DNA of 64,000 nt from Tetraselmis striata (lineage: Eukaryota > Chlorophyta > Chlorodendrophyceae > Chlorodendrales > Chlorodendraceae). The stretch is from NCBI GenBank assembly GCA_006384855.1, contig VCJN01001049.1:1-64000 (forward strand). The letters run 5' to 3'. Position numbers and translations under genes: made by a program. This document shows positions 17,545 to 49,335 of this stretch, piece by piece. How positions within the stretch are numbered: the first letter of the stretch is position 1; each line of letters begins with the position of its first letter. The notes beneath the pieces are model-generated. The model was given only the letters and a program-made list of their open reading frames with translations, searched no databases and was not told the DNA's origin.

Positions 17545-20343
17545 GGTGGTGGCCGCACGGTTGGACCAGGTCGAGTCGCGTCTTGTTTGTCAGCGGCCGA
17601 GCCGGGCGCACGGGCGGCGTGGCAGCGCCGTCCAGCACAGCCCGGGCAGCGCCCACCCTGAGCGGAAACAGCGGAGGATGGGACGGGGCAGCGGAGGCTC
17701 CCGGTGTGTCGAGGTTGGTTGTGGCCCGGGGTCCTGCGCGCAGAGCTATATATGACAGGACACCGCCTGATGCGCGCGTGACGGCGCTTGACCGTTGCTC
17801 GAAATAACTACAATTCAAAAATGAACAATAACAAACGGATGAGTGTCCATGGATGTCGCTTTATTTTCAGCCAGCATCAGCGAGTCAGAGTGTACGCACG
17901 GTAAACCGCCAACTAGCGAAACCGCCCAGTCGGTATGCGGGCACCTCCGTGCCTCTTCCAAGCCGCCACCCTGGTGCGTTTGTAGAGGAGACGTCTGCTC
18001 GATGGGTATGGTTACACGCGTGGTCCGTGTGTAACCAATTGACGGGCTAGAGTCGGGCAAAGGCAAAGTACTACGATACGAGAGACGCTGCAAGGGTTTC
18101 GCTGGTGCCAGTCCTGTCCCGGGGGCGGGAAAAAAACCTACCTGTACGATACAGGCGGCAGGCACCGGGGAGGGGGGGGGGGGGGGGGTATCTGCCAGTA
18201 CCGTGGTACTTGCGCTCGCTGGACGCAGGACGCTCGCACGTACGAGTATATGTAGCCACAAGAGACTTCCTTGGGTCCTGAGCTTGGTGGCGGCTCGAGA
18301 GCGTGCTCGCTGCCTCATCAAACGGCGCAGATTCGTCCGCCACCCAGTTGCCGAAGCCGCACAACGCGTCCGTGGATCGCCCTACTCGCTCAACCGCCTC
18401 CCGTGCTCGCGTGGCCTGGACTCTCAACCGGGCGCGCGTCACTCATCCATCCCGCCTCGTGCTGAGGGCGGCCGCTTTTTACCGGCTTAAGTTTATCTTG
18501 TATTACCATAAGGAACTCTTGTTAGGCAGAAGTCATGATTGTCAATGAAAAGCATGCGCGGTATGCGCCCACGCACTGTAGGAACCGCAGCACCCGCCGA
18601 TACAGCCGGGCCTTTCTCCGACGGTCCAGCACCCACAGCTGGCCACAAGTTATGATTCGCAAATGAAACGAGCGCGCGGGACGCGCAATAATACGCCCTC
18701 GAACGCACAACATTCGTCCGCTGCGGCCTCCTCCTCCGGCCATGTATCGTCATAACCGTTCCCATCAGCTCGCGTTGGGAGACGCGCATGCCGGGTCTGG
18801 CAGCCTGAGCGCCGCGCAACCGCAGCAACTGCTTCTGCTTTGAGGGATGGCCGGCCCGCCGGCGGCTAAACCCGTAGCCCCACGGCCACCAAACCGCCAA
18901 GGTCGGCGGGCCGCAGCCGGGAGCCCCGTGCGCGTTGTCAGCCCCACTAGTCCAGTGGCCGTCCATGACCCAAACAAAGCCGCACGAGTCCATCCAAGCC
19001 CCCTCAGTGGCGAGGGTAGCCCGCAGGGCTGCAAGCGCGACGTGCCCAACCAGCCTTCGCACAGCCCAGCAAGAAGTCGCACATGCTCCGCTGGCATGCG
19101 GGGGGCCCATCCCGACGGCAAGGCCTCGCAGCCCGGCAACTCCGTGTAGGACGGGGCAACGGCGACGGCGAGGAGGACGACTCTGCAGCAGACATCGGCG
19201 AGCTTGAAGCCGCATGCGGTAGCAATAAGGGGGAAGTTCAACACGAGATCAGTTCGCCCGACAACTCGAGGGCAGCCGCGCCGCGTGTGTCTTCGCCAAG
19301 AGTACCGCCGGGTGCGTGCCACGGCCCACGCCCCTCAGGGTCCCCGGCAGCGACGCGCAGGAGATGTGAGCCGAGGAATCAAGCCGGGGGAGGGGCATGC
19401 TCGGGACGATCGTCCGCCATGGTGTCACATGGTGGCTCCTATTGGAGGAAATACGGTCCTACAATGGAAGGGGGATCTGGTCGGAGGAATGAGCTCCTAC
19501 AACGTTTCTCCGACCATTCATAGATAGGGGAAATGACCTCACCGATGGATGATAACTTCGGGCGCGCGTCGACCGTTTTCCTACACTCGGGTAATACGGA
19601 AGAATCCTAGCGATTTCTACATTGTAGGATTTTCATTAACGAATGATAACTTCTGCCTTAGCAGTCGCTACTGCCTTTAGCGGTAGATTTTTTTGCTGGC
19701 CTTTTTGGAAGGATTAATTCACACGATTCCGCCGACCTGGTGGTACACGTACCTGTACGGGGTACTCGGATGACTGCGAACGGGGACAATCAAAAGCTCA
19801 ATAATACAGGCGTCAAAAGTATTAATGAACGGGTGGGTCTTAATCCGTGCGCAGGCTGCACGCCACATGTCGCCAAACTGATTGCCGCCCTGTGGGCATA
19901 TAAGGATTATCCTTATTTTCCCTCGAGCTAGCCGCCCCTAGTAGTCGCACAATTAATGCGATGGCGCATCGTGGACACATACGCATTTACATCTAAGGAT
20001 TAGCAGTGGTGAAATGCTACATCGATCTTGCCGGATGCAAAGGTGGTACATCGCATGTATGCGGTGTACATCTTAGGTTATCTAGGGTATTTCTATGCCC
20101 TACTCTGAAAACATGCGGGGTCATGTTGCGGCTACTGGATGCGTCGCAGGCCCATGGCCGCGCTTGGCGAATGTGCTTCAAAATTCAGCGATACCCGCCC
20201 GCTACGCGTGCGCCCCGGAAAACCGGAAATTGCCGGTTAGCTAGAAAATGCGCAAAAATCGCAGTATACGCGCGCAGTACATATGGTCGTAGTGTGGCTG
20301 TAAACTATTGCGCGGTACTTATTCTCACGCGGGCATAGGGCAA

Positions 20344-20344
<1 letters not shown>

Positions 20345-20375
<31 letters not shown>
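20345..20375 (+). repeat. Poly(G) tract of 31 bp
   Basis: This is an uninterrupted G-run in intergenic DNA. Confidence 0.95.
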
Positions 20376-20447
20376 CTACTTGGCCGAGAAAGCTCCCCCG
20401 CGTCCCGAACGTCTTGGTTATGATAGCGCCCACGTGAAGCTCGGCAT

Positions 20448-20837
20448 TCATCTCTTGCGCTGCCGTGCTTGCCGCCATGCCACCATCAGATGACACCGAA
20501 CGCCCCACCCCGCCCCTGGGTAGTGCGGGGATCGCTGATTCGTTTCGGGGAGACGAGAGGGGCGGAGAGGGCGGCGGGGGCGATGGCGGCGGCGACGGTA
20601 TCGATGCATATCACCCGGCTCGTCCCGCGTTCCGGTCAGAGCAGAGGCGGACGGAGCAGAGGCGTGACGGCCGTACGGTGCAGCAGCTACCGCAAGGGCG
20701 CCATCACCACCGGCTGCGACACGCGCGGCGGTGTCCGGAGGCGACGTGGCGCACGCCTCCGTCCATTTGTGCGTGTCGTAGAACCGATTCTTCGTGAACG
20801 AGGCGCCACACGCGCAGCAACGCATTTTCTTGGTAAC
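20448..20837 (-). CDS. Unrecognised frame with an N-terminal zinc-finger-like motif
   Basis: A 125-residue frame begins with ATG in an A-rich context. It has CCACGASF followed by a His and a Cys at finger-like spacing (residues 3-25). The remainder is Ala/Arg-rich without structure. It may be a fragment of a mobile-element ORF. No splice partners are evident. Confidence 0.2.
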   Translation of the reverse strand, partial: VTKKMRCCACGASFTKNRFYDTHKWTEACATSPPDTAARVAAGGDGALAVAAAPYGRHASAPSASALTGTRDEPGDMHRYRRRRHRPRRPLRPSRLPETNQRSPHYPGAGWGVRCHLMVAWRQARQRKR

Positions 20838-22463
20838 CCCTTCCCAAGTCCCCTTAGCAGCGGTTTAGCCCTTTTTGCCCTCAGGAACACGCGCTAGGAG
20901 TTGCGACGCCCCATGGCACACCACAACTCAGCGCCGGCGGCTTGCAGCGGCGGGGGTTGGTATGGGTCAGTCACTGGCGCTCCGGCGGCTCCGGCGCATG
21001 GTGAAGTGTCCGCGCGACTGCAATTTAGCCGGCTTGAGACCTACGGTACCGTTGGGCGTTGCGTCGTCACGGAGCTGGTGAGGCGGTAAAGTACAGAGTG
21101 GCGAAAGTCCCAACGATTACGGATAGGCGCGCAAGGCGCGATGTGGGTCCAATGTGCTATGGGGATGGCACAACATGCTACTACTGGTACCATGTTACGG
21201 AACGCGGGCGAGCCGGGCACATCCTTGCGACTATTGAGCCTACCAGTAGCAGAAATGCTTTTTACATCAGTGCTTTAACATATGCGCACTACAAATAGAA
21301 CTAACAACAACTATGAAAGGTTGCCAGCAAAAGAGAGACATAAGCCTGAAACCAAGGTCGAGCAGGAGGCCAAGGAGCCAAGAACCAAGGAAGAGCCAAG
21401 GGAACCACGAAGTCGCCGAGCTGCAAGGAACCAAAGGGTCAAGGGAAGCACTGAAGCCAAGTAACGACAGAAAGACCGAAAGGGGAACATGAAACCGATG
21501 GGGGCCACCGCCCCAGGGTAGGCCATCAGCCGCGGCGAGTACGCTTGAAGCCAATGACCCGGATCATAGCAACACAGGCCGACGAGCGACGCGACGCATG
21601 CGCTAGAGCACCATCACGTGCCGCGCGCGCGGCCGCGACCCCGCCAAGAACGTTGTCTGCACGTGCCATGTTGATGAGCAAGGAGAAACGGCGGCGCCAC
21701 GCGTACAAGAGCTGGCCGAATTTTTGGCCAATGTGTGTGTGTGGCTAGCTTTCGAGAGCTCCACAAAGAAGGCCTCAGCGTGCGGGGCCAGCGAGCGGAT
21801 CTCGGAAACGGCGAAAGGAACAAAGCGAAGCATGCCGCCGGCGTTTCGGACACCCTCGTCATACTTTTGTAGCAGAAAATGTGCGATTATACGCTAAATA
21901 CGATGATTATACGCCCATTCCCTCGGAAAATCGCGATTACGTGCCATATTACGGTATAATTACGAGACAGTCCGGGAGGCTAGTGAATAGGCTGCTCCCG
22001 CCCGAGTTATACACACACCCCTCCCCACCCGTAGGCGGATCTCGGAAAGGCTAACGCAAGGCCGAGGTCGTTTATGAATTATTTTTCGCAGCCCCCGTAC
22101 ATGGCTACCTACTCCCCAGCGGCGCTAGCAAGCGCTATACCGGGACTACGAGTATTATTTGAAAAGCCTCCCGTAGGGCTCCCCGGCCGTCGCGAGATCC
22201 GAGGATTGTCATCGACAACCAGCCACCCCGCCGCTCAGCCCCCTACCGCACCGAGCCGAGCACGGGTCTCAGGGGTTACCAGCGCCCAACGCGTGAAGGT
22301 GGGCGGGGGTGGTGCCGCCATGCCTGCCGCACTCATGATCCTCCGCTTCTGGTGGGCCGCTGCCTTGTGGCGGGCGCCGGAATGCTCTAAGCATGTTTAT
22401 GTGATTACCCCCTAATGTTTACTGTCCTAGTGCAACTACCCGAACGGTATGATAGTGGTTTCA

Positions 22464-23910
22464 ACCAGGGTGGAGCTGCAGTCCACTTTCCTTTATTGCA
22501 TGCATGCTGCAGTCAACATGCTGCAATAATGCATGCTGCAGTGCAGCCTGCAATAGCACTGAAACTGCCGATTGTAGGGAAGGGCGGGACAGTCAGGGGC
22601 AAAGGGGCAGCCATGGCGGATGCAGAGGGACAGCAATCGTGGTGGAAGATGTAATATATACATCATTACTTTGTCAACATAGGGGAAAAGCCTATTGTGT
22701 GTGCATTTGTGTGTGTCCAACGATGATGTCCCAACGCATGCATAGTGAAATACGCGTAAAAAAGCATGAAACTTCCTCTAATCTCCCGCCTCTCGGCTCC
22801 ATGCTGCTACAGCATGGACTCCACCGCTTCCTATTGAATGCGGCTGGCCTCCCCCTCGCCCTCGCCCTCAAGGACTTGGCTGGCCAGCCAATCCTCTCCG
22901 CATGGCTTGAGTAGATCCGCCGCCACGGCGCTGAAAGCAGCCTCTCCGTAGTACGACGCCAGTAGCGCCTTGACCTTGGCATCCAGGTCCAGGTTCCTCT
23001 GAACGAAGACGCAGGCACCCATGTTCTCCGGGTTCATTCTATTTCTTAAGTGCATGGTGATAAGACCAGCGCGCTCGTACTCAATCTGTGAGCCCGGCAC
23101 ACATACAGCAATCCTAGGTAATTCAGGGATGAGGGGAAAAGAAGAAGGGCATACGCGGATGAACCTGGTTTTCACCGGGGTGGTGAACGTTAGCGCTGCC
23201 TTGCCAAAGCGGACACACACATCGTCGGCGTACAGTGTGTTTTTGACTTTGAATTTTCACACATCCTTGTGGTGATCTTTTTGACTTTGATGGTCTGCGG
23301 GTAGGGAGCAGGCGGCAGTCGGCAAACATCAGCCAGCAGTAAAAGGGGGGGTAAAGTCAACATGTGTGTTGTGTGTGTGTGTGTGTGGGGGGGGGGGGGG
23401 CACCACATATGTTTTGGCTTAGGCCAGGAGCACAGCTCCGCTGCAGTGCTGGCCGCGGCGGCGGCGATGCTGTCCTCCGCCATCGCCTCGTCCGCCATCG
23501 CCGCTGCGCCCTGCTTCGCGGCAGATTGGTCTCCCTTCATTTAATTGACGAAAAGTGACGAGAGGAGGATGACATGTAGTGGTGCCTGGGTGAGCGTGAA
23601 GTGAGGATAGGTTCGGCAGGTGTGTGTGGTCTGCTGGCCGATGCCCCGATGCGGCGACGTGTGATGGTACGGGCGAGTACGGTGCTATCCGCTGCGCTCC
23701 GACAGCCGAAACCGTCGCCATACATACAGCTTATTATCATTGGCGGGCGCCATATCCAAACGTTATCCAGTGAGATTTGGGGCACTTTGGGTAACTGCAC
23801 TGCAGCCCCTTTTCGGGAAGTACTGTAGGCTGCAGTGCAGGAGCTTAACTGCATGCTGCAGTTTCTGCAGCCTGCAGTTAGTGCTGTAGATACTGCAGCC
23901 CAACCCTGGT
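22464..23910. mobile_element. 1.45-kb DNA transposon with CTGCAG subterminal repeats
   Basis: The left end (22464-22482) starts ACCAGGGTGGAGCTGCAGT. The right end (23892-23910) is its inverted repeat with 17 of 19 matches. Both ends are flanked by TTCA (22460-22463 and 23911-23914), a candidate 4-bp target duplication. Both subterminal regions are crowded with CTGCAG/TGCATGCTGCAG motifs (22476-22560 and 23795-23900), as expected for transposase-binding arrays. No transposase is visible. It carries minus-strand exons of unknown origin, so it looks non-autonomous and possibly gene-carrying. Confidence 0.65.
22829..23540 (-). CDS. Unrecognised spliced gene or captured gene fragment inside the transposon
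   Basis: A first exon beginning at ATG 23540 reads an Ala-rich leader (MKGDQSAAKQGAAAMADEAM...) up to a donor near 23405 followed by a poly(C) tract. Later exons read NTLYADDVCVRFGKAALTF, and after an intron ending CACAG, IEYERAGLITMHLRNRM through a Glu/Gly tail ending at about 22831. The clean intron borders (FIR|GTATGC...CACAG|IEYE) suggest genuine exons. I do not recognise the family. Exon joining between the leader and the core is uncertain. Confidence 0.35.
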
Positions 23911-23919
23911 TTCAACCGG

Positions 23920-24110
23920 TGAATGAAGTTATAGGTACTAGCGGGTTTCCAAACATGTTGATGCCCCATCGCCCGTGAGCCATGCTTTCCCGGCCGGGGA
24001 GCTACTTAGGACAGCCACTGCCAGCTCGCATGCCATCTTCCACCTCGCTGCGGCCTTCCGCAACGCCCTCCCGTTTTCCGGTTCCGCCTTCATCCGGGTC
24101 CGCCTCCACA
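23920..24110 (-). repeat. Dispersed repeat family R2, copy 1 (partial)
   Basis: The reverse complement shares long blocks, including CTGTCCTAAGTAGCTCCCCG and CGGGCGATGGGGCA, with repeats at about 39893 and 42062. It lies immediately beside the 1.45-kb element. Confidence 0.65.
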
Positions 24111-24332
24111 TTTTTCCTCCTCTTTCGGTGTGCCTCCTTGGCCAGAGAATGCCGCTTCTTCATTGTAAAACAGCCTTCGCACCCTCTGGCAAAACCAGAC
24201 ACGATTTTATGTTTGAAATCCTTGCTTGTTAGTCGTCGCGACAGGTAAATCTGAAAAGGCGTGCGTGCGTAATCCGTGTATCACGTATAAATAACGAACA
24301 TGTATCAGATCCAATATTGTGTGTAGTGTGTA

Positions 24333-24368
<36 letters not shown>

Positions 24369-24437
24369 GCATATTTGTTAGTATGTACACACAGGTATAT
24401 ATACGTGTGTGTGTGTGTGTATATATATTAGGGAAAC

Positions 24438-28034: not shown

Positions 28035-28862
28035 TGTACATATACCCAGCCATAGTGGTATTGTCATATTGGTGTATATATTTCATTTTGATGTATGTAT
28101 ATTTTGCTTATACTGGTCTATATATTTACATAATTTAGTATACCAATATCCCAGTGTTGCGCCCAAATTGAAAGCGCTCTGCACGCCACGAACGCGCGAC
28201 GGGCTCCGCTACTGCAAGCGGCGCGACGGTCGGACGAAGTCGTGTGCTGTCGGCTGCCGCGCGCGGGATGCTGAAAGTAAATGCCGACGGATGAGCGCGC
28301 TGCTGACGTCTGCGCGGCCGAGCGTCCACGCGACTGTCTCAGGCCCCACCCACCCCGCGCCCAGAAGCACGTGGCGATACCAGCTGCACTCCTTCCAGTC
28401 AACGTGTAAGAGCGCACGTGTGTAGCGGAACGTCGACGCCGTGTCGTGCACAGGCAGCATATTATTGCGCGCTCCGATCGACGCCGACCAAGCACCGCGG
28501 TGAGGACCGGTACAGAAAGTACTCGCAAGAGCCAATGCGAGTAACTCGGCCCACCTCGCCCCTGACCGTGCAACCCGCTCGTGCCTAGCCCTGCTAGCTG
28601 CCGTCGGCTTGCGCTGTGACCATTATTCCATCCATCGGATTTTGCGGTTGGCCTCAGACATCCCGCACCTGATGGCGATTTCTGCGTTGCTGTGCGTGCC
28701 AGTTGCCAGTTGAGCGGAGAGCTTGTCTGCTTGGGAGGTAGGCGAGCCACCGAGGCAGGGGTTTCAGTGCCTTTCGAGGTAGTGCTGTGACGGCTGGTGC
28801 GGCTGCGTGAGCTGCGATTTCACTATCCAACTTCCCAGCTTGTGGGGGGAGGGGTGGGCAGC
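28035..28862. other. Intergenic / upstream region of the VOC-GST gene
   Basis: No gene is recognised. Frames on both strands are GC-driven. The left 100 bp are AT-rich (TATATTT-type). The promoter of the downstream gene should lie here, but no specific element could be identified. Confidence 0.4.
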
Positions 28863-31599
28863 ATGGAGGAGGCGACGGAGTATGGCAACATCGCCCTCCT
28901 GGAGCACATCAACATCAACACCGACCTGCCTCTGGAATGCCTCTCGTTCTTCTGCGACGCGCTGGGCTTTGTGCAGGACCCACGGCAGGGGGAGGTGATA
29001 GACGGCCGCGTGTACGTCAACACCCTGCTGTGGCTGAACGCCGCGACCTCGCAGCTGCACATCGCCGTCACCACCCGTGGCGCGTCGGGTGCACCCCAAA
29101 ACCGCCTGGATGGCGCCGTTGGGCTGGGCTTCGAGGATCTGGACGCGCTGGCCAGCCGGCTGGAGGCTGTCGCGCCTAGCCTGGCCCACACCGCCTTCAG
29201 CTGGTCCCGCACAGACGGAAAAACGTTGGAGGCGTGCGACCCGATGGGCAACCGATTTGTGTGCCAGACGGCTCCGCGCTCCTCCCGAGACACGCGCGGC
29301 TTCCACCCGGGGCCGGTCTCCACCTGCCTGGGCATCCTCTGGGTAGAGTTCAACGTGCCGCCGGAAGCCGCGCCCAGCATCGCGGAGTACTACCGCGCCT
29401 ACTTCCATGCGGCTGTGGCTGCACAGGAGCCGGGCCTTGCGCGAGTCCGTGCCGGGCCGCACCAGGAGCTGCGCTTCCGGGAGGCGCCCGGCAGGTGGGC
29501 CGGCGGATCAGTCCTCCGCTGCCACCGCCAGCCCCCTGAAAGCGCTCGCTTCGTCACCTATCCAATATGATCACACCATGCAGTGCATCGCTGTCACACA
29601 GCCCAGAATGTCTGAGGGTGCCTGTGCCAATGCCACTTCTGGGCCTGCATGGAATCATGACAGCACATCACTTAGGCAGCACCTCACGTGGCTGCCGGTA
29701 CGCACCTCGCTGGCAACAGGACGCCGCGCGGCAGCGAGCGGGACGAGGGCGAGGCGTACGAGAACTCGGCGCGCGGGCTGCACATCGCGCTGTACCTGCA
29801 CGATCACGCCACCCCAATGGCGCGCCTGGCGGCGGACGGCCTGCTGTGGGGAAACCCGCGCTACACCGACCTGGACACCTTCCTCAACCTGAAGCAGTTC
29901 CGCTGCAAGGACATCATGCGCTGCGGCCCGTCGGCGCGCAAGGCGGTGCTGCTGTTTGAGCTGGAGCACGAGTGCCGGCGCATGGACCACGACGCGACGC
30001 CGTTTGGCCATCGCCAGCCGTACGCGCTGCTGCGCCGGGAGCCGGTGCCCGCCTTGGTAAGCACTGTGACAGACGCTTACGAGCGCGACTTCCAGGTGAG
30101 CCGCATCTGCTGGCAGTCTGCTGAGACTCCTCGCCTCCCTCCTGCGCGCACACATATCCCTATCGCAAGTGCGGCGTGTGTACATAATGGGTATGTTCAT
30201 CGCCATGTGAAAATGCATTCTGACACGTCCGTACCATTTCAGCCCAAAAAGTGACTTTTTTTTTTGCAAAAGCTTGTTGCTGTCAAATCCGCATTCTCTT
30301 CATTGTGTGTTATAAGTTTTTGGGGCATTTTATTGCTTTTCATGTTGACAGTACATGACCCACAGTTTAGGGTGCTTCCTGAAAGTCATCTCTAGGAACG
30401 GCTGCCTTTCGTCCACCTAAATTCAAACAACCAGATGACAACCATGTCAGAAAACTAATAAAGTGCCGCCATGCACCCCAAAGCAGTGTCGTGTTACCAG
30501 TATTGATGAGCCCGGAACGATGAACCTGGACACGCGTTCGGATAGAGCATGCCTTCCCGCCATTGATCCAAGTTTAGACGAATACATCGCAGTCCCATAA
30601 CAAAAGTCGGCGCATTTGTCGCCGCGCGGAATACTGAGAGCACTGGCAATGTTGGTATTCGTATCGTCACGAATGCCAACGCGTCTGGTGTGGATTTGTT
30701 TTATTTCTCACTGCTTTTGGATGGCGCTTTGTGCAGGCGCTGCGGACTGCCAAGATGGCTGCCGCTCGGGAGGGCTTTGTGCCAAAGCCGCCGGGCGTGG
30801 CGTACAAGCCCCTAGCGGTGCACACTTGGGACACACCCAACGGGCGCAAAGTGGCGCTGGCGCTGGAGGAGCTGCGGCTGCCTTATGTTCTCCGGCCCGT
30901 CCGGCCGGGAGGCCCGGAGGCGTCCAGTGCTGCGTACCTCGCCATCGCGCCCAACGGGAAGGTGCCGGCCATTGAGGACCCCAACGTGCTGCAGCATGAT
31001 GGCACGCCGCTGTCAGTGTTTGAGTCGGGCGCTATCCTGCTGTACCTGGCGGAGCGCTATGGCCGCGGGGCGCTGCTGCCTGGCGATCCGGTCGGCCGCC
31101 AGAAGTGCCTTGAGTGGCTGTTCTTCCAGGTCCGTTCTCCCCCGTGACCATACCCCTCCAACCCGCCTACACCGCAGCCCAGGTTATTGAGTATCGGCGT
31201 TTGTGTGTTTCCCAGGTTGGCAGCTTCGGGCCTGCGGCTGGGCAGGCGCACCACTTCATGTCTGCAGAGGGGCGTGCTCCCGGCTTGGACGGCGAGGCTT
31301 CCCCCGCAGAGCCAGCGGGTGCCGCGTACGGACTGCAGCGTTTCTCACAGAAAGTGCAGGAGCTGTACACCCTGATGGACGCCTGGCTGGCGCAGCACGA
31401 GTATTTCGCTGGCACGGAGTACACCATCGCCGACATCTCCATTTTCTGCTGGGTCTTCCAGGCGTGGACGTATGATGTCGACCTGATTAAGTTTCCAAAC
31501 GTCAAGCGCTGGTACGACGCCATCTGTGTCCGTCCTGCAGTCGAGCGCGGGCTCATGGCCACCGAGGATATGGTGAAGGCGGTGTCTGCTCCTGCATAG
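28863..31599 (+). CDS. VOC (glyoxalase-fold) domain joined to a Ure2p-like glutathione S-transferase, candidate fusion
   Basis: Four exons join in phase: 28863-29494, 29720-30095, 30737-31129 and 31216-31599 (TAG), giving about 594 residues. Exons 1-2 (residues 1-336) form a VOC/glyoxalase-bleomycin-resistance fold with two betaalphabetabetabeta units: IALLEHININT, LHIAVTT, LGILWVEFNVP, GLHIALYLHDHATPM, and LFELEHECR near the end. Exons 3-4 are a thioredoxin-fold GST: VHTWDTPNGRKVALALEEL, NGKVPAIEDP (cis-Pro loop), ESGAILLYLAERYG (glutathione binding), then the all-helical domain with VGSFGPAAGQAHHF and YTIADISIF. This matches Ure2p/YfcG (Nu) class GSTs. No stop or TGTAA is seen between the parts, and exon 2 ends in phase 0 with a donor. 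The alternative is two genes, because ATG 30755 has an excellent start context (GCCAAGATGGC). Activity would be cytosolic glutathione-dependent detoxification, by family. Confidence 0.8.
30755..31599 (+). CDS. Alternative model: stand-alone Ure2p/YfcG-class glutathione S-transferase
   Basis: If the VOC and GST parts are separate, the GST starts MAAAREGFVPKPPG at 30755, is spliced 31129/31216, and has 252 residues, a normal length for this class. The 5' leader exon would then begin at the acceptor ending 30736. This overlaps the fusion model and is given so that the choice is explicit. Confidence 0.4.
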
Positions 31600-31672
31600 C
31601 CAGCGAGACTGCGGTATGATGAGGCCCATACGTCCTGTCAGCAATGCCTTCCACATCCAGATAGTATTTAGT

Positions 31673-31677
31673 TGTAA
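31673..31677 (+). terminator. TGTAA polyadenylation signal after the GST
   Basis: TGTAA lies 74 nt past the TAG stop. This is the typical chlorophyte poly(A) signal and a normal distance, supporting this as the gene's 3' end. Confidence 0.6.
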
Positions 31678-31679
31678 CA

Positions 31680-33083
31680 CAGGAACACTGACTTTCTACG
31701 ATCCACCGGGTGGGTGATAGCATTAGCTAGAGGGAGCGATCCACATCATGGCCAATATGTGGAACGCATGAACACTATCGAGCCATATGTATCGCATGTG
31801 AAACATATTCTCAACTTGTATGTCGTAGGCACTGCAGTTGTGATGGCACACCCCAACAATGGGTTAACCCCCGAGGCAATTATGTATTTACGTATGATAG
31901 GCTGTGAGAGTGTCATCGCATTTGAGAGGACAGCAGTTTGAGGTATAATCAGCGTATGTATGTATATGCTCCGACACCCATTGTTGCCAATGTACATGCG
32001 ACAGTCTGCGGTGTAGATATTACCATCGACGTAATTACTTGGCTGACGCCAGATAGGTAACCGCGTGATGTGACTCCGCTGGCAACACATAAAAACCCGT
32101 CACATCGTGTGCTATGACGACGCTGCCGCCGGCATCATCGGACATAACTTCTATCTACACCCGACAGTAATGAAAGCAGAAGCTGCGGCAGTAGCCAGCT
32201 CGAGATCAATCCCATCGTCAGCGGTCAGCATGCAATCGTCTGCTATTCCGCGGCGGCATTAGTCCTTCAAGGGCGACACTACGCTGCCTATATTTAACAC
32301 TCGATCGGCAAAAAAAAAACAGAGCAACGTTGAGCCGCCCCAGAGATGTATTCAATAGCTGCTGTAACATATGCACACCAGTCATTCGATACAACAACTA
32401 AGCAGCGGCACCGCCTAGCACCGCCGCCTTGCGAGAAGTTGCGCTTTTATTCCGTCGCATGTCGCGAGGCAATTGTGGATAGATAAACTAGTCGGAGTGC
32501 TGCACATTGCTTGCCGGGCAATTCTACAATTATACTGTTCCATGCCGTAGTCCCGATGCCACGCATCCGCTAACTACGAGTACCGTACCTATGAGTAAGG
32601 ATTACTGGTAGCACAGTTAACATCTAACACTCACATTGCTGGCTATAATCCTTGAAACGCGAGCATGATATGCGACAAATATCGCAATAAGGAAAGGCCA
32701 ACGTACGCCCACAGCAATGTGATATTCCGCGTCAGTAGGCTCAGGTCGGATGGTGACAACAGCAGTATATTAAAATAGTGTATCCAATGGCCTTGTTCGT
32801 TTTTTATTAATGTGGGCCACCATTGGCTCCAGGCGATGCTGTGTGATGATACACGACAGTAGCGACTACTCGACCTGGCGGCGGACTCAGCGATCCGCCA
32901 AGGAAGACGGGCATTGCTTTCATGCCGCGAGTCACGACCACTTAAATTAATAAACAGAAGTCTTATCGTCGGAGCAGCATATTCATCGCACGGCCTGCTT
33001 ATTGCTGAGGCCCCGACAGCTAATACGTACATCAGTATAGGTACCAACTATTTTACTAAGCCTCGCACTGCTGTGCTCGCACT
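31680..33083. other. Intergenic, moderately AT-rich
   Basis: No gene, tRNA or repeat is recognised. Short frames on both strands lack coding character. Confidence 0.45.
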
Positions 33084-33145
33084 GCGCGAGACTTCTTATA
33101 GGAGGCATGCCTGTAGGAGGCACATCCTATAGGAGGCACGACTCG
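33084..33145 (+). repeat. Triple short direct repeat upstream of the single-exon ORF
   Basis: TATAGGAGGCA-like units recur three times (near 33098, 33110 and 33128), ending about 25 nt before the ATG at 33162. They could be promoter elements or chance. Confidence 0.4.
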
Positions 33146-33161
33146 GCGGCCGGGTTATGAA

Positions 33162-34304
33162 ATGGGAGACATTGTCTTACTTGATGCTATCGAGGCGGAA
33201 GTGGCAACCCGCCGCGCGGCCTTGCAGTATTGCAGCAGCGCGTCGCCCTTCGTCGCCGGCGACGGCACGCTGGGTAATGACGACGCGGCGAAACAGCAGA
33301 CACGTGATGGCAGAAAGGGAAGCCACAGGCCGTCATTTTCCGTCTTGGGCCTGTTGGCGATAGGCGCTGCGCTTGCCAGCGCTTTCGCGCGCCGGCTGAT
33401 GGGCTTGTTTCACGCCCGAGAACCCGGACACGACAGTTCTTCGTCCAAGCCTGCCTCCACGGAAGGGAGAACCCACAGCCGTCTCGCCGCTGGAGATTCT
33501 GAAAACGCCGTACCAGCGGATGAGATTGATAAGGTCGGCGACGCAAAAAAAATGCCGTCCAATGATAGTCCCGATACCACAGCACAGACTTTCCCTCCCG
33601 TCTGCGGCGTGGGCGACACAGCCTCGACAATCAGAAACGTCGCGTGGCCCGGGACGCCAGGACAGAGCGAGCGGCCAGGCCATGACGAAGGCTGCTCTCA
33701 TGCTGCTCCGGAGACGTCGACTGCTATGGATCCCGTTTCTGAGACTGAGACCACGGAGGACACTAAGCGACATGTTATCGATGCTACTATCACGACACCG
33801 GACGTGGCGACGGGGGTACATGTGCAGGGTTCCGGACATGGAGATACGATCGGCGACGAGTCGCCGGGATGCGAAAGTATCGGCGCCCTGACGGTAACAC
33901 TTCCCCAAAAGGTCGAAGAGCCAGTTGCGGCGGAACCCGTTGAGGTTCACCGCATTTCACCCAGCGCCGTGGAAGCGGACGAGCCGTCCGCCGCGAAACC
34001 GACAAGCCACATCCACCTTGACACCGAAGATGTTACACGCGGAGAACCCTCGAGCCCTGCGGTTGAGCGGGCACATCAGCCGGCGGACGCAATGCCTGCA
34101 TCGTCGATATCATCGGAGGAGGCCGCCTCGCGTGGTCCTGAAGAAGCTGCCACAAGCAATATCGCGAGTGCAGAACCGCAGTATGTCGAGCCAAGAACAG
34201 ACTCTGCTGGACCCAGGAGCAAGCGACGGCTGGCCAAGTTTACCCGCTCTCTAGCTAAAAGCCTCAAAATAAGAGGAAAACTTGCCAGACGCAGCGTGCC
34301 GTGA
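33162..34304 (+). CDS. Unknown single-exon protein with one hydrophobic segment and a long disordered tail
   Basis: A 380-residue frame starts with ATG and is open to TGA with no internal stop, the longest uninterrupted frame on + apart from spliced exons. Residues 1-55 are Ala-rich. Residues 59-77 (FSVLGLLAIGAALASAF) form one membrane-length hydrophobic stretch followed by Arg. Residues 90-355 are rich in Ser, Thr, Pro, Glu and Asp, with no repeats. The last 25 or so residues are strongly basic (KRRLAKFTRSLAKSLKIRG). I recognise no domain. It could be a single-pass membrane protein with a basic cytosolic end. Lack of introns differs from its neighbours. Confidence 0.5.
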   Translation: MGDIVLLDAIEAEVATRRAALQYCSSASPFVAGDGTLGNDDAAKQQTRDGRKGSHRPSFSVLGLLAIGAALASAFARRLMGLFHAREPGHDSSSSKPASTEGRTHSRLAAGDSENAVPADEIDKVGDAKKMPSNDSPDTTAQTFPPVCGVGDTASTIRNVAWPGTPGQSERPGHDEGCSHAAPETSTAMDPVSETETTEDTKRHVIDATITTPDVATGVHVQGSGHGDTIGDESPGCESIGALTVTLPQKVEEPVAAEPVEVHRISPSAVEADEPSAAKPTSHIHLDTEDVTRGEPSSPAVERAHQPADAMPASSISSEEAASRGPEEAATSNIASAEPQYVEPRTDSAGPRSKRRLAKFTRSLAKSLKIRGKLARRSVP

Positions 34305-35360
34305 ATAGTACGACGGCTGATCCAACACGGTTGCCAATGCCAAATCTCGACTGGCGCAAATAGTGTCGACCGGCACACATGATGAAGTCGCGACGTTGGG
34401 CATGCACATTGGCATACGAACCCATCTTTCAGTAACCTAGGTGTGGGGCTAGTAGTGCTCGAAATTTCAGTTTGAGTCTGCCTGCGCCATCTCTCGCTCG
34501 ATTGGTCGGTAGTAGCAGCATGGATAGCAGTAGTGTGGTGGTAAAGCGAAACACCATTAGTGACGTCTCCCTCACATTTCCTTTCAAAAGTCCGAGTGGC
34601 CAGTTCACCGTAGACTGTAGTATAGCCCCCCCTGACGCAGCCAGTGTAACGCATCCCCTGGTAGATCCATTGGGACCATCACCACAAAATTGGTTAGAGT
34701 GCGTGGTCAATTCGCACAGTCCTGGGTGCCAAAATCAGGCTGATGCTGATGTATATTGCCAGGCACACAAGCCAGAGTGTACCCGCAACAAGATCTTTCC
34801 TGACCTATCTCTGCGACGCCTCAGGTGCCCAATCTTCCCTCGCACCAGGCTACACTTCCGAGCGTGCCCTTGAACATCGGATGGCGACTTCAATCACGGG
34901 CTTTCGATATTACACGGTGTTGACCACGCAATACATAGCCTCATGTGGCAGCTGTCCTGCCACTGAGAATGCATCACCAAATAGGAAGACCACTGGGATA
35001 TGTACTAGTGGCGTGAGCGTTAGCTAATGCCGTGCGCAGCGCATCAGAGGCACTCCCCCGGTAGATAATTGGAGTAGTGATGTCCAAGATGCCCGTGGCA
35101 TGCACGTGGTGCTGATTGCGCGGGGCCAGCGGCTTGCTCCGCCGGAGGGTGTGAGCGTTGAAAGGGTATTATGAGGTCTTGCGTACCTTGCGCGCGGTTC
35201 CTCAATTGGAAGTTATTGCTTCAAGGGGCTGATGAAATACGTATTCTGTGCCCGATTATTCTAGCGGCCCGCTCCTAAATTCAATCGATCCATTGTCTAT
35301 GGTCTTCACGCCTTAATAGAGATAAATGCTCTAAGAGTGCCGGGCTAAGCTCCCGGCCTG
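34305..35360. other. Intergenic between convergent genes
   Basis: Nothing is recognised beyond short frames (for example 34472-34873 +). No clear poly(A) signal is found for either flanking gene. Confidence 0.4.
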
Positions 35361-38300
35361 TCATCCCGTGTTCTGTTGCCAAAGAGTAATGAACGGCGTG
35401 CCGTCGTCGCCTGCTTGCGATGGCGAATAGTAATTGCCGTCCGCGAGCTTGCAGCGGCACACCCTGCTTGGGGCCAGCCAGTAGCACGAGTCGTTCGGCT
35501 CCTGCCGGGGGTCTGCACTGCCCTGCTCCCGCTGCACGGATGCATAGCGCCGGGGCGGGGCTGAAAATGGCACTTCGGCAGCCGCCGCGATGCAGCTGCT
35601 GCCGTAGCAATAGCACCGTCCCGGCGCGGCAGCGCGGCAGTCGCGGTGCCGAGTGCAACCAGCCTGGAACACAGCGCATCGGAAGCGCACGAGCGCATGG
35701 GCCCCGGCGCCGCCGTCACCCTCGACGGCCATCATCCCCTGGTAGGCCAGGCTATCGGATGTCTCCAGGCGGCGGCAGCGGCGCACCAGCAGCCCCTCGT
35801 AGGCCGCCTGCAGGTTCCCCAGCCGCTGCAATGCCGTGCAGGCTCGCATGGAGAAGTACTCTGCGCTCCCTGGATCGCACAGCTGGCGGTAGTAGGGAGC
35901 TAGCGCATCCCACACCGCCACAAACCGTCGCCGGACCGCGACACTCTGCCGAGCCGCAGAGGCCAGAAACGCCGCAAGCCCCGCCGGGGAGAGTCCGCCG
36001 GCGAGGCGGCCCTCGGTGCCCTGCGGCGCCATGCGGACGCTGAGCATCTCGACTGGATGCTGCGCGCCCTGCCGGCTGCCGCCTGTGGCCGCCCCAGAGC
36101 AGCCTCCGACTGCACTGCCGCCGGCCAGCCTCACCGCCTGGGCACAGGCGCGCAGCAGCATGCCGCGCGCGGGGGACTGCAGGGCGCTGTCCATGTAGGC
36201 CCACTCCTGGTAGCGCCCCCCCACGTCCATGCCCGCCAGCACCGCATGCCCATGTACTTGCAGGAAGTCGGCGTACGGCTGCAGAAACGCCTCCACTCCT
36301 GCGGCACAGCATGCCGCGTCGGAAACACAGCGCAGAGCATCCAGGGCGGCCAGCCCGGGGGATGCACGCGGACACCAGCATTGGTCCGTAGCTGTTGTCA
36401 GCACAGAGCGGATACTGGTCCTCACGGGGTTGGAGTTTACCCTGGTCGTTGGACAGCCGGCCTCGCAGCTCCTCTGCCAGCTGCCGGTACGTCGTGTTGC
36501 CGTCAGCCACGAGCTCTGTCGAACAACGCAGAAGGACAAAAGCCATCCGCACCTCAACCCAGAGGCTGCGTTCCGGACCAGGCAGGCAGCTCGGGACACA
36601 TCGGAACGCATCGGGTGCGCGCGAATGCGTCCCCAACTCCACCCGCGGCGCGGTCAAGCCCGCCGTTTGACACGGAGCATCCCTGTGTAAACCTCCGCTT
36701 CCGGCCCACCCGGCAACGCAAATGCTATGTGTGCATCTACTACTACCGCATCAAACAACGGCAACAACTCTCGACGTGTCGTGAAAACTGCATCAGTGGG
36801 CATCAAAACAGATCGCACATCGGCTGGCAGCGCACCGAGGGGGCTCACCTATTTCGCGGTCCATGTCAAATACGGGGTGCGCGCCCTCGCCGGGGTCCGC
36901 AGCGCTGCTGGGCGCCGTGAGCGGGAGCCCCTCAAAGGCAGCCAAAAAGTCGGCGTCCAGCTTGGCGGGCTCGAAGCAGCGGGTGCGGACCTCCAGGGAC
37001 CGTTGCACGCGCAGGATGTCCAGCCGGACGGCCTGCAGCGCAGCGGTGTCATTGTGCGCCCTCCCCACTGCCGCCTGGAGGGTTGCACCAAGGGCCGCCG
37101 CGTGGCCGTAGCTGCTGCCCCGCGGGGTGGCGCCACCCCCCAGCGCCTCCTGGGAAAGGTGCGCCACCAGCTCCCCCATGGAGCGCAGCTGCGAGACCGC
37201 CACTTGCAGCAGCTCCCCGGGCGCCGTGTTGCCGGTGTCAACGCAGCCCTCCGCGCCCGGCTCCCGCAGGATGGAGCGCCGGGCGGCACCTAGCGGTGGG
37301 CGGGGAGGCTCTGCGGTGAGGTCCTGCTCCGATAGCCGCAGGAGGGTCCCGAGATCGGCCTGCAGCTGCTGGAGCCGGGTCTGGGGCGGGGGCCGGGGGG
37401 CTGGGGAGTCGCTGCTGGTAGGTGCTGGGGCTGGCGGTGGGGGAGGCAGAGACGCTGGGCTGGGAGGCTGAGTGGGAGGCGGGTTGAGCACAGGGGATGA
37501 GGGGGGCAACGCGGGCGGAGGCACCGGGGAAGAGGGGCTTGGCGGCTGGGCGGGCGGCGTATATGGGGGCGGCGGCGGCGGAGGAAGAGGTGGAGGGATG
37601 GGAGGCGGCGGCGCTGTTTCCCCCTCGGGGAGCAGCCCGCTGCTGCCCCAGGAGGACGGCAGCCCCGGGATGTCGGGGCCGGTGCCGTAGCGGTGAGTGG
37701 ATATTGCGCCGCTGGCCATCAGCACGATGGCCGTCAGCATGAGGAGCAGCAGCATCACGCACACCAGCAGCCAGAACTGCCACCACCGATGTCGGCGGGA
37801 TGGACCAACCTCATCACACTGCTTCCCCTCCGGCAGTGGGTGGCCGCCGCCCGTGCCGCTCGTGCCGCCCGGCCCCAGCGCGACTATCCCCACGGCACTG
37901 CCGCTGCCGCTGCCGCTGCTCGCGAGGCTCTTCCTCGGCAAAGACACCCTGCCTGTTCCGCATGGTGCCTGGCGAGTGCCGCGCGCTTTCGCCCCCCCGC
38001 TGGCCGTTGCCTCTGCGGCATCGCCCTCCGCCGGCACATCTGCATGCTCCTGTCTGTCAGGCACGGCGGTGTGGGGGCCTGTTGGCAGGGCCTGGCGCCT
38101 ATCCTGCAGCGCCTCCATCTCTAGGTCGCTGCCTTGAGAGTCATACCGAAGGTCATGCTCGGCCCCCTTGCCCGTTTCTGGCGGAGCAGAGACCGGCACC
38201 ACTGCGCCTCCGCCGTCCCCGGAGCTTTCGTCATCAGAGTGTGATTCGCTGGAAGACGAGCTGGTGCATTTCACCTGTTATGATGCACAGCGCTGCTGAG

Positions 38301-38600
38301 AAGCAAGCCGGACAGCTTTAGTGGCCCGGCACAGCGCAGCCGCGCAAACGGCATGGAGGGCACTCTCTGGCATGTGTGGACGCAGGCGCAGAAGCATACC
38401 GTCCATGCCGATGTCGGCACGGCGGAAGGGCTCACCTCGACGTGCGACAACGTGAGCGGGTCCCCAGGCGAGTACCCCGCGGACGCCACGCCGCAGCGCG
38501 AGAGGGGAGGGCGCCATAGGGCGCTTGAAGGCCGGGCGCTGCTGATGGTCCCAGGCCGTCCCCCCCGCAAAGCGGCAACTGAAGCAGTGGAGTTGACCTG
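35361..38600 (-). CDS. Membrane protein with proline-rich stalk and Cys-containing ectodomain (5' end uncertain)
   Basis: Supported exons: 38437-38600 (candidate upstream exon ending SHVE), 36849-38274, 36441-36515 and 35361-36391 (TGA), in phase. The segment from 38274 follows an acceptor (AACAG|GTGAAATGC), so it is not the translation start. Counting from there: residues 1-160 are Ser/Gly/acidic; about 164-190 is a transmembrane helix (WLLVCVMLLLLMLTAIVLM); about 211-300 is a proline stalk (PPPPIPPPLPPPPPPP, then PPSPSSPVPPP); then a helical, Cys-bearing region to the end, with CRCKLADGNYY near the C-terminus. The stalk resembles hydroxyproline-rich pherophorin/extensin-type wall proteins, but no pherophorin domain is evident. 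Topology is probably type II with the stalk outside. Function unknown. The initiating Met lies at or above 38600 (ATG 38807 is one candidate). Confidence 0.72.
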
Positions 38601-38659
38601 CTGTAGTGACGGCGGCAAGAAGCGAGCCTGCCAGGGCAGCAAAGGGGCGGTGGGTTGGT

Positions 38660-38681
38660 GGGGGGGGGGGGGGGGGGGGGG
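38660..38681 (+). repeat. Poly(G) tract in the intron of the proline-stalk gene (poly(C) on the coding strand)
   Basis: This 22-bp run lies about 55-80 nt upstream of the acceptor at 38601-38605 on the gene's strand. Confidence 0.9.
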
Positions 38682-38689
38682 AGAGAATA

Positions 38690-39570
38690 ATGAAAGACTT
38701 GCTTGGGCTCCCGGGTGTGCGAGAAGGACATGCAGTCCGCAGAGGCAGCGCCGCAGAGGCGGTTGCCGCAGGCCTGATGGCGCACGCGCATCGAACCCTC
38801 CGAACATGTAGCCCCATCACTGCAATGCAAGGCGCGTGCGGGGCTTCAACTGGGACCCGAGCAGTGCAGGCACACAAAGGCAGCGCAGCACGCACATCCA
38901 CATGCGGCAGCTCGGCTGCGAGTCCGACTCTGCTGCCTCCGTTAACTGACGGCGGCGCGTAGCGTGCCTGTTTGGGATTGGGAGCAGAGCCGCACGGGCG
39001 GTGACAGCTGCGTCAGCCAGGCGCTGTCGCCTCCCCCTTGGAGAGGGAAGGCGGCATGTCTCAAGTACCAGGGGTTGACTTACATCAACCAGATATAGGC
39101 TCGCATCCTGAATGCGATTCGATGGGAGCAGTTCGTCTGGGATGCCAAAGCGGCTTGACGGGGTGTCAGGCGAGCCCTGCGAGCGGCACGGAGGGAGCTT
39201 GTTACTATTGCTGCTCTGCACCGGCAGCTCCGGCAGCGGCCCAAGCACCGCCCTGCCATTGTGCACCTGTCACGCCGACATACCTGGCTCGAGGTGGCGG
39301 GCGTCAACGGGAGCGAGCTCCTTCTGCCCACGCTGCTCTGCTCCATCCAAAGGACGGCTCCTATCAGGCAACGATGGCTCTGAGGGCTTGGTCGTATGGG
39401 GCACAATTTAAGCAGCGCAGCTGCTGCGCTGTCACTCAGGGCGCAGGAGTCACACTGTCCCATATCCCCATCTGAGGGATGGTCACATGCAGGCTTCGTC
39501 TCATTGACATACATTCCCGTGCCGCGAGCAGCGACGCGCGGCGCGCTACGTACCGTACCTTTGTTTTTTT
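38690..39570. other. Upstream region of the proline-stalk gene
   Basis: Frames on the minus strand (for example 39080-39514) could hold a further 5' exon, but none is convincing. Confidence 0.35.
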
Positions 39571-39740
39571 CGCCACCCCCCCGGACTGGCAGTGAAACCC
39601 CCTTGCAACGTCTCTACGACGGCGGTTTGGGCAGCAATCCAGTTACGGAAAGCCCTGGGTAGGCGACGCTCCGATATAGTCATCAAGCAAATTGCCGAAG
39701 CATTCTGCAAGACTAGCTAATTGAACGCCAGTGACAAAAT
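39560..39740 (-). mobile_element. LINE 3'-region fragment
   Basis: It shares the block CTACGACGGCGGTTTGGGCAGCAATCC...GCCCTGGGTAGGCGACGCTCC with 43250-43410, in the same (minus) orientation. It is diverged and 5'-truncated. Confidence 0.65.
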
Positions 39741-39892
39741 TTCCAACGTACCGTACCTGTAGTACAATTTCAATAGGCAATCGAGTCTGGTTTGGCCAAA
39801 AAGGTTGCGGAGGCCAATTTACATGGAAAAGAGCCATTGTATAGCTAGGGCTAAGGTTCAGCTATAGGGGAGGGAATGTCGGAGGAGGAGCC

Positions 39893-40175
39893 CACAGGGC
39901 GGAGGCGGAAAACGGAAGGGTGCTGCCGAAGGCAGCGAGCTGGAAGATGGCAGACGAGCTGCTGGTGGCTGTCCTAAGTAGCTCCCCGGCCAGGAGCACA
40001 GGGCCCGCGGGCGATGGGGCAGCCCGTACTATAACCCCGATGGTACCATATACCTAACCGGTTAAAACCACTAACAGACCGTACAGGTCGCACTAGGACT
40101 ACTAAATCCGTAACCCCCATCCTATAAGGATTACTAGGAAAAGGAAAGCCCATAAACACGTTCAGATCATTTCAA
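39893..40175 (+). repeat. Dispersed repeat family R2, copy 2
   Basis: It contains GGCAGCGAGCTGGAAGATGG, CTGTCCTAAGTAGCTCCCCG and AACCACTAACAGACCGTACA, all shared with copy 3 at 42062-42280. It has no clear ORF or inverted ends. Confidence 0.8.
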
Positions 40176-40179
40176 CATG

Positions 40180-42060
40180 CAATCGAGTCTGGTTTTGCCA
40201 GTTTACACGCGGTTCGTTTACGACTACGAGCGTGGGCGGTTTGCAGGCGTGCCGACCTAACGAAGGCGGAAGATGTCTTGAGTTGTAGAAGCCAGAGGTC
40301 TCGCGCCGAGAGGTTAGACCTCAACCGAGGCGCAGGCGCACAACAGACGCGGACGGGAGATGCTGACGCCGGCGCGACATCGGCCGGACTTGTCGCGGAA
40401 TTTAGTAGGCGTTGCCTCCCGACAACGCCCTACAGCATTTGCCGCGCGCCGTGCGTGGTGGCGTGCGGCACGAGCCGGAACTGCAGGCTAGTAGAAGCAG
40501 GGTAGAAGTGGCCAAGTTGGCGACGAGCGCCCAGCAAAGCAGCGGCACAGGCACCAGTAGGACGAGTACAGCCGCGCGCACGAGCGCGCGAGCGCGCCGC
40601 GTACAACCATTGAAGTACATGTATTGGTATGCTGTACGCGACGCGATGGTAACTCTGCACCTGTACTGGCGATGCACGTTACGAGGGGTGGACACGCAAC
40701 AACGCGCGATGACGCGATGTAAGGCCGCAGCCATCACCAGCATTGGTTGTTTCGCCCCCTCGCGCCAAGGGCGGCGGGTGAAACGCACGACGCTGGTGAG
40801 GAGCGCGGGAACGTGGGATCCTGTATGTGTGGTCGTGTCGTACCGGCTCTTAGGTGTGTCGGGGTCGGCTGTCGGCGACGTGGCAGAAGACCTTCCGACT
40901 CGATAAGCTGTCGCTCTTCGCGGAGAGCGGTGAGCATGCCGCCGCTGTTGCTCCAGATGACGCCACGAAATGCGCAAGTCGCGTTAGGTGGCGGAGCTGT
41001 CCCCCGGCGGGCAGCTCGTGATGTCACAGATAAGATTTCGTGACGTCGGAAGCGGGTTGGCCGGCGTAGAGGCCCTTGTAGCCTCTGTGCCGGCCCGTAA
41101 CGATGCCAATAATGTCCGGGCGAGGGTGACGACGAGGCATACCAGCGACGGGCGCCGAGGTTCCAAACCCATAGTCGGCCACGGGTAGTTACGTACACCA
41201 CGAGGCGTCGGGCACGCCAAGTGGTGGAGCTGCCCCCCGGCGGGCAACTGCAGGTTGTCGTGGTCCTTGTGACGGCGACGTTGCAGTTGGAGGCGTCGGA
41301 GACGCGTCGGGACGAGCCGCAGAAACGCCTCCCACTGCGACCACAACAAACGTCGCTGAAGCATGATTGGGGCGAGGGCGACGCGCCCTCTCAAAACCTC
41401 GGCCCATGAGCGACGCCGACCCCGTAACGGACCAATTACGCCAGTAGTTACGGAAACAATAGCGTGTAACGACCGTTGATGCCACGACGCCCTGCTGCGA
41501 GGACACGCGGACCGGGTTGCAGTGTCTTGCGGGACAGCAAATGGTTGCCCCGACGACACGGACGTCCTCCCAAATGGTTGCCCCGACGACACGGACGTCC
41601 TCCTCCGTCCGCGCCGATTTCTCGCGGTAGGCGTAGTTGTCGTCGTTGACAACCGTGACGAGGAGCGGCCATGGTGCCGAGCGCGTCCACCTGACCTAAT
41701 CTCACGATTACTGCGAGAGGGTGCTCCACTGCGGGAGCCCCGAATGCTTGTATTGCGACTCGTCGACTTCGGGTGTTGAGGTTGACCCCCCCCCCCCCCC
41801 CCCCAACGGGAACCCCCTAGCTCCAATTCCTTGCCGTGCGCATCGCTACCCGAAACGTCCCAGCTGCAAAGCCAAGGCAAAAACGGAAAACGACCTCGGG
41901 CGCACGAGTAGGGAAAACCACATTACCGAGGGGATGTCTGTCACTGCATGATGTTGTAACGCACGTGCGCGGCACGACGACTCGCTTCCGGGTGGATGAA
42001 CCTCGGCGCGGACTTGGCGCGCCTCAGTGACCCTCGCGCGCACAAGTGACCCTCGCGCGC
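40180..42060. other. GC-rich interval with local duplications, no gene recognised
   Basis: A degenerate direct duplication of about 232 bp (marked by GGCGGAGCTGTCCCCCGGCG at 40989 and its variant at 41222) and a 33-bp tandem pair (CAAATGGTTGCCCCGACGAC, 41539-41603) are present. A poly(C) tract lies at 41786-41804. Antisense frames up to 298 codons across the duplications look like GC artefacts. Confidence 0.45.
41539..41603 (+). repeat. 33-bp tandem duplication
   Basis: Two nearly perfect copies of a unit containing CAAATGGTTGCCCCGACGAC and GGACGTCCTCC. Confidence 0.85.
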
Positions 42061-42061
42061 A

Positions 42062-42280
42062 CCAAAGGCAGCGAGCTGGAAGATGGCAGACAAGCTGATG
42101 GTGGCTGTCCTAAGTAGTTCCCCGACGGGGAGCGCAAGGCTTGCAGGCAATGGGGCAGCACATACTAAAACCCGATGGTACCAGTTACCTTACCGGTTAA
42201 AACCACTAACAGACCGTACAGGTTGCACTAGGACAGTTTAGATCCGTTGGGAACCCCATAAACACGTTTAGATCATACCG
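42062..42280 (+). repeat. Dispersed repeat family R2, copy 3
   Basis: It is colinear with 39931-40175 over about 215 bp, with scattered substitutions. Confidence 0.8.
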
Positions 42281-42334
42281 CGCGTGATGTAGTCACCAAT
42301 CATGTGTACTCGTACCACAACATGTAGCAATCAT

Positions 42335-42405
42335 GTAGTTGGCGCACAAGGTCAAGTGTTGGGGCGGCTTCGGCCGATGTCCCGGGGCGAACTGTACTGT
42401 ACCTT
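42335..42405 (+). mobile_element. Isolated LINE/SINE 3' tail
   Basis: The block GTGTTGGGGCGGCTTCGGCC followed by GATGTCCCGGGGCGAACT matches the ends of the SINEs at 42.83 and 56.15 kb and of the LINE at 63.9 kb. Confidence 0.65.
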
Positions 42406-42825
42406 ACGTAGCAATCATGTATAAGGTACCGGTGGTGGTAGAAATATCGACGGTAGATGGTCATCATTATCATTATTGCAGCAATGATTACAGTATTATT
42501 GTGACACTACCTGTAAAATGAAAAGTCGGGGCCCCTCTCCCCTACTGCTCAGTATGGGGGTGGCTGGGTTCATTATCATGCAAGGAGGGACGCCGGGTTA
42601 GGATTACCGGTAGGCTGATATGAGAGGGGTTTGCTGGTTACACGATGAAGACTCGGGTGAAGGCAAAGTACTACGGGCGGTAAGAGGGGGCGCAGTACAA
42701 GGAAGCAGGCATCACTGAAGCGCTAAGTAACATGTCCGGCGGAGCGCGCATGGCGCCCGCACCGGCAGCCGATGAAGGATCGGCGACGGTGTTCTCTTGG
42801 GGGTACGCTGATGAAGTAAAGTAAA

Positions 42826-43080
42826 GTTCGCCCCGGGTCATCGGCCGAAGCCGCCCCAACACTTAACCTCATCGTGCGCCAATTGTTGTCACAGGTCTGG
42901 CATAGCCATTCGACCGTTGCCTCATTCGACCCAAGAAGTAAGGGTCAATGCATCAACCAGGTAAACCCGGGACACGGCCCTTGTCGTTGTTGCCCTGAAA
43001 TGACAGCCGGGAATCGATCCGGGGACCTCTTGAGAAGGAGACCACCGCTCTACCGAGCGAACATGACAAGACAAGGCATG
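42826..43080 (-). mobile_element. tRNA-headed SINE-like element, copy 1
   Basis: Read on the minus strand: a tRNA-like head with A-box GCTCGGTAGAGCGG and B-box GGATCGATTCCCGG, a central part (GGTTGATGCATTGACCC), and the 3' tail GTGTTGGGGCGGCTTCGGCC. The tail equals that of the LINE. It abuts LINE sequence at about 43.1-43.2 kb. Confidence 0.65.
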
Positions 43081-43183
43081 TACGCGGATATCAAGACGAG
43101 GGCTAAAACATGTAATTAGCCAAACTGAAGTACACGTTGAGCAATCAAAACCAATCGCGCGAGCAGCATATTCGAGGCGACGT

Positions 43184-44012: not shown

Positions 44013-44019
44013 GAGATAC

Positions 44020-45666: not shown

Positions 45667-45669
45667 TGT

Positions 45670-49313: not shown

Positions 49314-49335
49314 ATCTTGAACCCTACACCCAAGG

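Follow-up and report, generated by a model that had tools for sequence, protein, structure and literature searches.

Results

Four exons join in frame at the locus

The window, by which we mean the whole 64,000-nucleotide stretch analyzed here, is part of contig C835 and carries four exons on the forward strand that join in frame, as mapped in the initial annotation. The spliced frame runs for 1785 nt without an internal stop, again as had been claimed, and encodes 594 amino acids plus the stop codon: a VOC (glyoxalase-type) half of 336 residues followed by a Nu/Ure2p-like glutathione transferase (GST). Exon 1 (28863-29494) opens with ATG 28863, which has no other ATG within 190 nt upstream, and would encode the first VOC module pair and the start of the second; it aligns to eight bacterial relatives. 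Exon 2 (29720-30095) supplies the remainder of the second pair and ends in ...YERDFQ at a CAG/GTGAGC donor. Exon 3 (30737-31129) encodes an ALRTAK stretch and then the thioredoxin-fold domain of the GST with its TPN motif, and exon 4 (31216-31599) the helical domain and the stop. All three introns are gt-ag. Intron 1 (29495-29719, 225 nt) is the least certain, the 29494/29720 junction having been picked on frame and gt-ag only, and intron 3 (31130-31215) spans 86 nt. Intron 2 (30096-30736, 641 nt) is in dispute, as either an intron of one fused gene or the space between two. The likely polyadenylation signal of the gene is a TGTAA at 31673-31677, 74 nt beyond the final base of the GST stop codon; passages of PMC3439250 give TGTAA as the main signal in Chlamydomonas.

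The second haplotype is contig C1944 (L017, L020-L023), which is syntenic with window positions 28145-46691 (95.7%) and 47557-64000 (97.8%). It retains all four exons, the splice-junction words and the frame, although as a single closely related copy it tests frame and splice sites with low power. The exons differ from the haplotig at 12/632, 4/376, 3/393, and 4/384 sites, respectively, with no indels. Intron 1 differs at 5/225 sites (2.2%), intron 3 at 2/86 (2.3%), and intron 2 at 40/637 (6.3%) with six indels in addition. The 5' flank differs at 21/657 sites (3.2%) and the 3' flank at 59/677 (8.7%), one 100-base block accounting for 32 of the 59; the next ~700 bases differ at 26/691 (3.8%). 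Only four of the 23 exonic substitutions are nonsynonymous (13 synonymous and 3 nonsynonymous in the VOC half, 6 and 1 in the GST half), giving pN/pS values between the two haplotypes of 0.08 and 0.06. Both halves are under purifying selection.

The C-terminal half is a Nu-class-like glutathione transferase

The GST half matches the Pfam GST N and C domains, both over their full length. Its top NCBIfam models are PRK13972 (E 3e-40) and PRK11752 (E 1e-36), which we take to be the YfcG and YghU models; both scores lie far under the curated cut-offs (138 versus 332 bits and 126.6 versus 325, respectively). The best PDB matches are 4l8e (1.7e-39), 4eci (3.7e-38), and E. coli YfcG (1.2e-37). The TPNG, VPAI-like, and FESGA stretches align with 4l8e and 4eci, and the Thr-Pro-Asn motif is present as WDTPNGRK, aligned to the TPNG of both structures. 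According to passages of PMC5892560, Thr-Pro-Asn is a highly conserved Nu-class motif that activates glutathione, and several members of the class show glutathione lyase activity. The same passages count the fungal Ure2p protein PcUre2pB1 within the Nu class, so the Ure2p and Nu labels overlap. The Ure2p-class assignment made in the initial annotation is thus acceptable but loose: PDB chains named Ure2p match at 3e-19 (Ure2p5) and weaker, with yeast Ure2 at 1e-15, and the algal domain is nearer to YfcG. In the parts of PMC9937507 that bear on classification, the conserved-domain test applied is cd03048, and three Chlamydomonas GSTs are placed in 'Alc', the sister class of Ure2p. The algal domain is like the Nu-class GSTs (E. 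coli YfcG and YghU, Novosphingobium NaGSTNu, cytGST subgroup Main.2) in its best NCBIfam match and among its best PDB matches, in its motifs, and in its full N and C domains. By contrast, the aligned solved chains are stand-alone, whereas the algal GST is probably joined to an N-terminal VOC half. Other marks of the class are the binding of two glutathione molecules and disulfide reductase or glutathione lyase activity.

Within the assembly, the GST half has its two haplotig copies and four weaker matches at E<=1, on C935, C5, C1131, and, as a fragment, C1254. The match on C5 (L019, 2926-3705) is an intronless, stand-alone, Nu-like GST of 259 amino acids, and the VOC half is absent from the 7 kb examined around it. 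C5 looks eukaryotic rather than bacterial: it carries an AKAP7-type domain and has a low density of long frames, as in the alga. It may therefore hold a second algal Nu-like GST that lacks a VOC half.

The N-terminal half is related to bacterial VOC-type proteins

The algal VOC half itself matches no Pfam or NCBIfam family at E<=1. We sought relatives at E<=0.001 in a sample of 398 genomes from the phylum to which Thalassobacter (L032) belongs; nine of the genomes gave a match. Eight of these are full-length stand-alone proteins (L033-L040) of 291-314 amino acids, with start codons chosen by hand; the ninth (L041), a weak partial match with stops, was kept out of the alignment. The eight are 28-31% identical to the VOC half by tblastn; measured in the multiple alignment, identity is 32-35%. 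The alignment of algal and bacterial rows has 60 invariant columns, including E14, H15, H66, E123, E207, H232, E293, and E295, eight of the nine rows being closely related bacterial sequences. Three of the relatives were scanned against the glyoxalase cut-offs: the L033 protein passes both PF18029 and PF00903, the L039 protein falls just under the PF00903 cut-off (20.3 versus 20.6 bits), and the L034 protein has no glyoxalase match and only Ble-like_N at 0.23. The bacterial relatives supply the link to glyoxalase models on which the VOC label rests, and the initial call, made by eye, was probably right. Judged by its sequence, the half probably comprises two VOC module pairs. We take E207, H232, and either E293 or E295 to be possible metal ligands of the second pair; in the first pair, the Glu that the canonical positions of the VOC fold would place after the DPxGN turn is missing. 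The uncharacterized proteins L033-L040 share these invariant residues with the algal half, but the latter has insertions and, in the favored model, continues into the GST.

The VOC half has only its two haplotig copies in the assembly, besides three weak partial matches (E 0.09-0.54). The genomes of L031 and L032 had no relative of it (0/2), a plasmid collection gave no match, and a pattern search confirmed no relative among genome contigs or viral contigs, the latter also searched by profile. PHROGs returned a single weak match of unknown function (E 0.0055). Among solved structures nothing fell below E 0.2 for the VOC half; AlphaFold2 on exon 1 alone gave a mean pLDDT of 41.1. For the L033-L040 family, matches to Pfam glyoxalase models are weak or lacking, and a profile search returned no related solved structure. 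In these searches, in which one bacterial phylum was sampled, the VOC family is otherwise found only in bacteria; the sample being one such phylum and no eukaryotic collection, we claim neither horizontal transfer nor a direction. None of the eight bacterial neighborhoods (19.5 kb each, ~9 kb either side) holds a relative of the GST half by tblastn at E<=0.1, so this sample gives no sign of a bacterial gene cluster that brings VOC and GST together. The immediate neighbors, one per side, of five of the eight VOC genes have no common theme (two of the ten scanned frames are inexact).

The stretch between the two halves is probably an intron

Both splice sites exist as initially described: a donor, GACTTCCAG/gtgagc, lies in frame at 30095, and an acceptor, ctttgtgcag/GCGCTG, lies at 30736 and leads straight into the GST. 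They join phase 0 to phase 0. Counted over the two strands of the window (128 kb) with the sites of this gene among them, the strict patterns CAG/GTGAG[CT] and [CT]TTGTGCAG/G are rare, at two occurrences each, counts that are post hoc since the patterns were designed around these very sites; the looser acceptor TGCAG/G occurs 66 times. Coding signal ends at the donor and restarts at 30737. GC3 is 0.92 in exon 2 and 0.50 in the 52 codons read beyond the donor, and five of the six codons between the acceptor and ATG 30755 end in G or C. A codon score, trained, unlike GC3, on these same exons, drops from 0.35 to -0.20 beyond the donor and is back to 0.33 at 30737. We rejected unspliced read-through beyond 30095, as the sequence there has the composition of noncoding DNA and the haplotig does not preserve the frame. 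Among 13 YAG acceptors paired with the 30095 donor, 30737 alone gives a long tail that is identical in both haplotypes and contains a known domain. The VOC frame reaches the donor without a stop, and exon 2 extends 25 residues beyond the conserved R-x-P that lies near the end of the bacterial relatives, within the 18-44 by which these extend beyond it. The length of the stretch is not unusual: nine neighboring match pairs in the assembly, picked by eye with gaps under 60 excluded, lie 109-698 bases apart. It is single copy in the assembly apart from the haplotig.

The in-frame consensus splice pair with matching phases, the fall and return of coding signal at the splice sites, the low pN/pS, and the exons conserved in the haplotig argue for a single gene. 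On these grounds, we regard a fused VOC-GST transcript, spliced from 30095 to 30737, as the best-supported gene model and a probable one; the fusion proposed in the initial annotation stands to that extent.

Other observations point to two neighboring genes on the same strand, in which the 30095 donor of the VOC gene would join a brief last exon within 30096-30736 and the GST would start at ATG 30755-30757 under its own promoter. The GC content of the gap is 0.48, close to the 0.49 of the 3' flank, compared with ~0.60 for introns 1 and 3, and its divergence lies above that of those introns and within the range of the flanks. All eight full-length bacterial VOC relatives are stand-alone, as is the GST on C5, although the latter has no bearing on the splice and leaves the odds of fusion unchanged. 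Short alternative endings for the VOC half are also at hand: at six of the 12 other acceptors, the VOC tail has the same length in the two haplotypes, with values from 6 to 37 amino acids (30396, 20; 30435, 7; 30487, 37; 30546, 6; 30578, 19; 30593, 14). The residues are identical in both haplotypes for 30435, which gives MTTMSEN-stop and is followed by an AATAAA at 30457, and for 30546, which gives SMPSRH-stop. However, the 30435 tract is weaker, with 11/21 pyrimidines including four T. Acceptor 30243, with 14/21 pyrimidines, is as good as 30736, with 13/21, but its tail, PKK-stop in the window, is not the same in the two haplotypes (3 versus 24 amino acids). The GST from ATG 30755 would be complete and of normal length (252 amino acids), and the ATG has the strong initiation context noted for it at the outset, with A at -3 and G at +4. 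Yet out-of-frame ATGs lie at -34, -82, and -106 in both haplotypes, in frames that overlap the GST start, which argues against a stand-alone GST whose unspliced leader exceeds 34 nt. Two genes would, moreover, require an unrelated strong acceptor, in phase, 18 nt before the GST ATG. We therefore consider two genes unlikely.

The polyadenylation signals bear on a further arrangement. The initial annotation had reported no TGTAA between the two halves; this holds for the window, where the next one is that at 31673, but the haplotig carries a TGTAA inside the gap. According to the passages of PMC3439250 on this signal, polyadenylation in Chlamydomonas does not strictly depend on TGTAA, which is found at 12 of 26 recorded polyadenylation sites, and a copy inside a coding region does not work as one. 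Its absence from the gap in the window is thus weak evidence, and its presence in the haplotig counts on the side of two genes. A fused and a shorter transcript might both be made, by way of a second polyadenylation site or a promoter inside the gene and perhaps depending on haplotype, only one having the TGTAA; the splice-junction words are identical in both. Given these properties of the signal, we think this very improbable.

A possible bifunctional enzyme

We favor the fused gene, from which one spliced mRNA would yield one protein of 594 residues, with the VOC half first, then a linker of about 40-50 residues, and last a Nu-class GST in its entirety. In such a protein, the VOC half might take as substrate a carbonyl or an aromatic compound, either free or as the glutathione adduct, and the GST, with glutathione held at Thr-Pro-Asn, might reduce a disulfide or remove glutathione from the product. 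Two steps of a single detoxification route would thereby stay linked. We put forward tentatively, and with less confidence than the splice itself, that the enzyme may be truly bifunctional: a VOC family would have been joined to a Nu-class GST in an algal lineage, and one polypeptide would carry out both a VOC reaction and a glutathione lyase or reductase step on one substrate. The bifunctional role in detoxification suggested in the initial annotation is tentative to the same degree.

Passages of PMC3995644 describe cytGSTs with extra domains (double GST, EF1B) as known but uncommon and VOC-fold enzymes as a separate kind of glutathione transferase. Like those fusions, the algal protein would combine a cytGST with an extra domain, but a VOC-cytGST fusion is not mentioned in those passages. 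Glyoxalase and GST genes are given separately in the corresponding part of PMC8448359. No VOC/glyoxalase-GST fusion was found in the titles or abstract openings of open-licence literature, among the part of the matches listed. Two glutathione-linked detoxification domains that are usually separate proteins seemingly lie in one spliced gene, which, if real, would be a new domain architecture of known families. By a 'Rosetta stone' argument, the fusion would also tie an uncharacterized VOC family to glutathione chemistry and offer a testable function for a protein family whose profile search returned no related solved structure.

Assembly context and nearby features

The assembly comprises 224 Mb in 2903 contigs, and its 63 matches to the chlorophyll a/b-binding family fit a photosynthetic eukaryote, most naturally read as a green alga. 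Frames of at least 150 codons cover 0.99 and 0.95 of the stretches examined on C935 and C1131, respectively, versus 0.53 of the window. Because of these dense long frames and of an autoinducer-binding domain on C935 (L018) and an AzlC domain on C1131 (L015), both contigs look bacterial; they probably derive from co-cultured bacteria in a culture that was not axenic.

Upstream of window position 28145, C1944 instead matches scattered pieces of window 19726-24387, so the haplotypes differ in structure ~720 bp before the VOC start. Window positions 46692-47556 (865 bases) are missing from C1944. At 50964-51974, several overlapping interhaplotype matches of ~0.4-0.8 kb lie at shifted positions, which suggests a local tandem repeat. 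Finally, window 58902-60197 holds an open frame of 432 amino acids with an SdiA-regulated domain (PF06977, E 8.7e-10).
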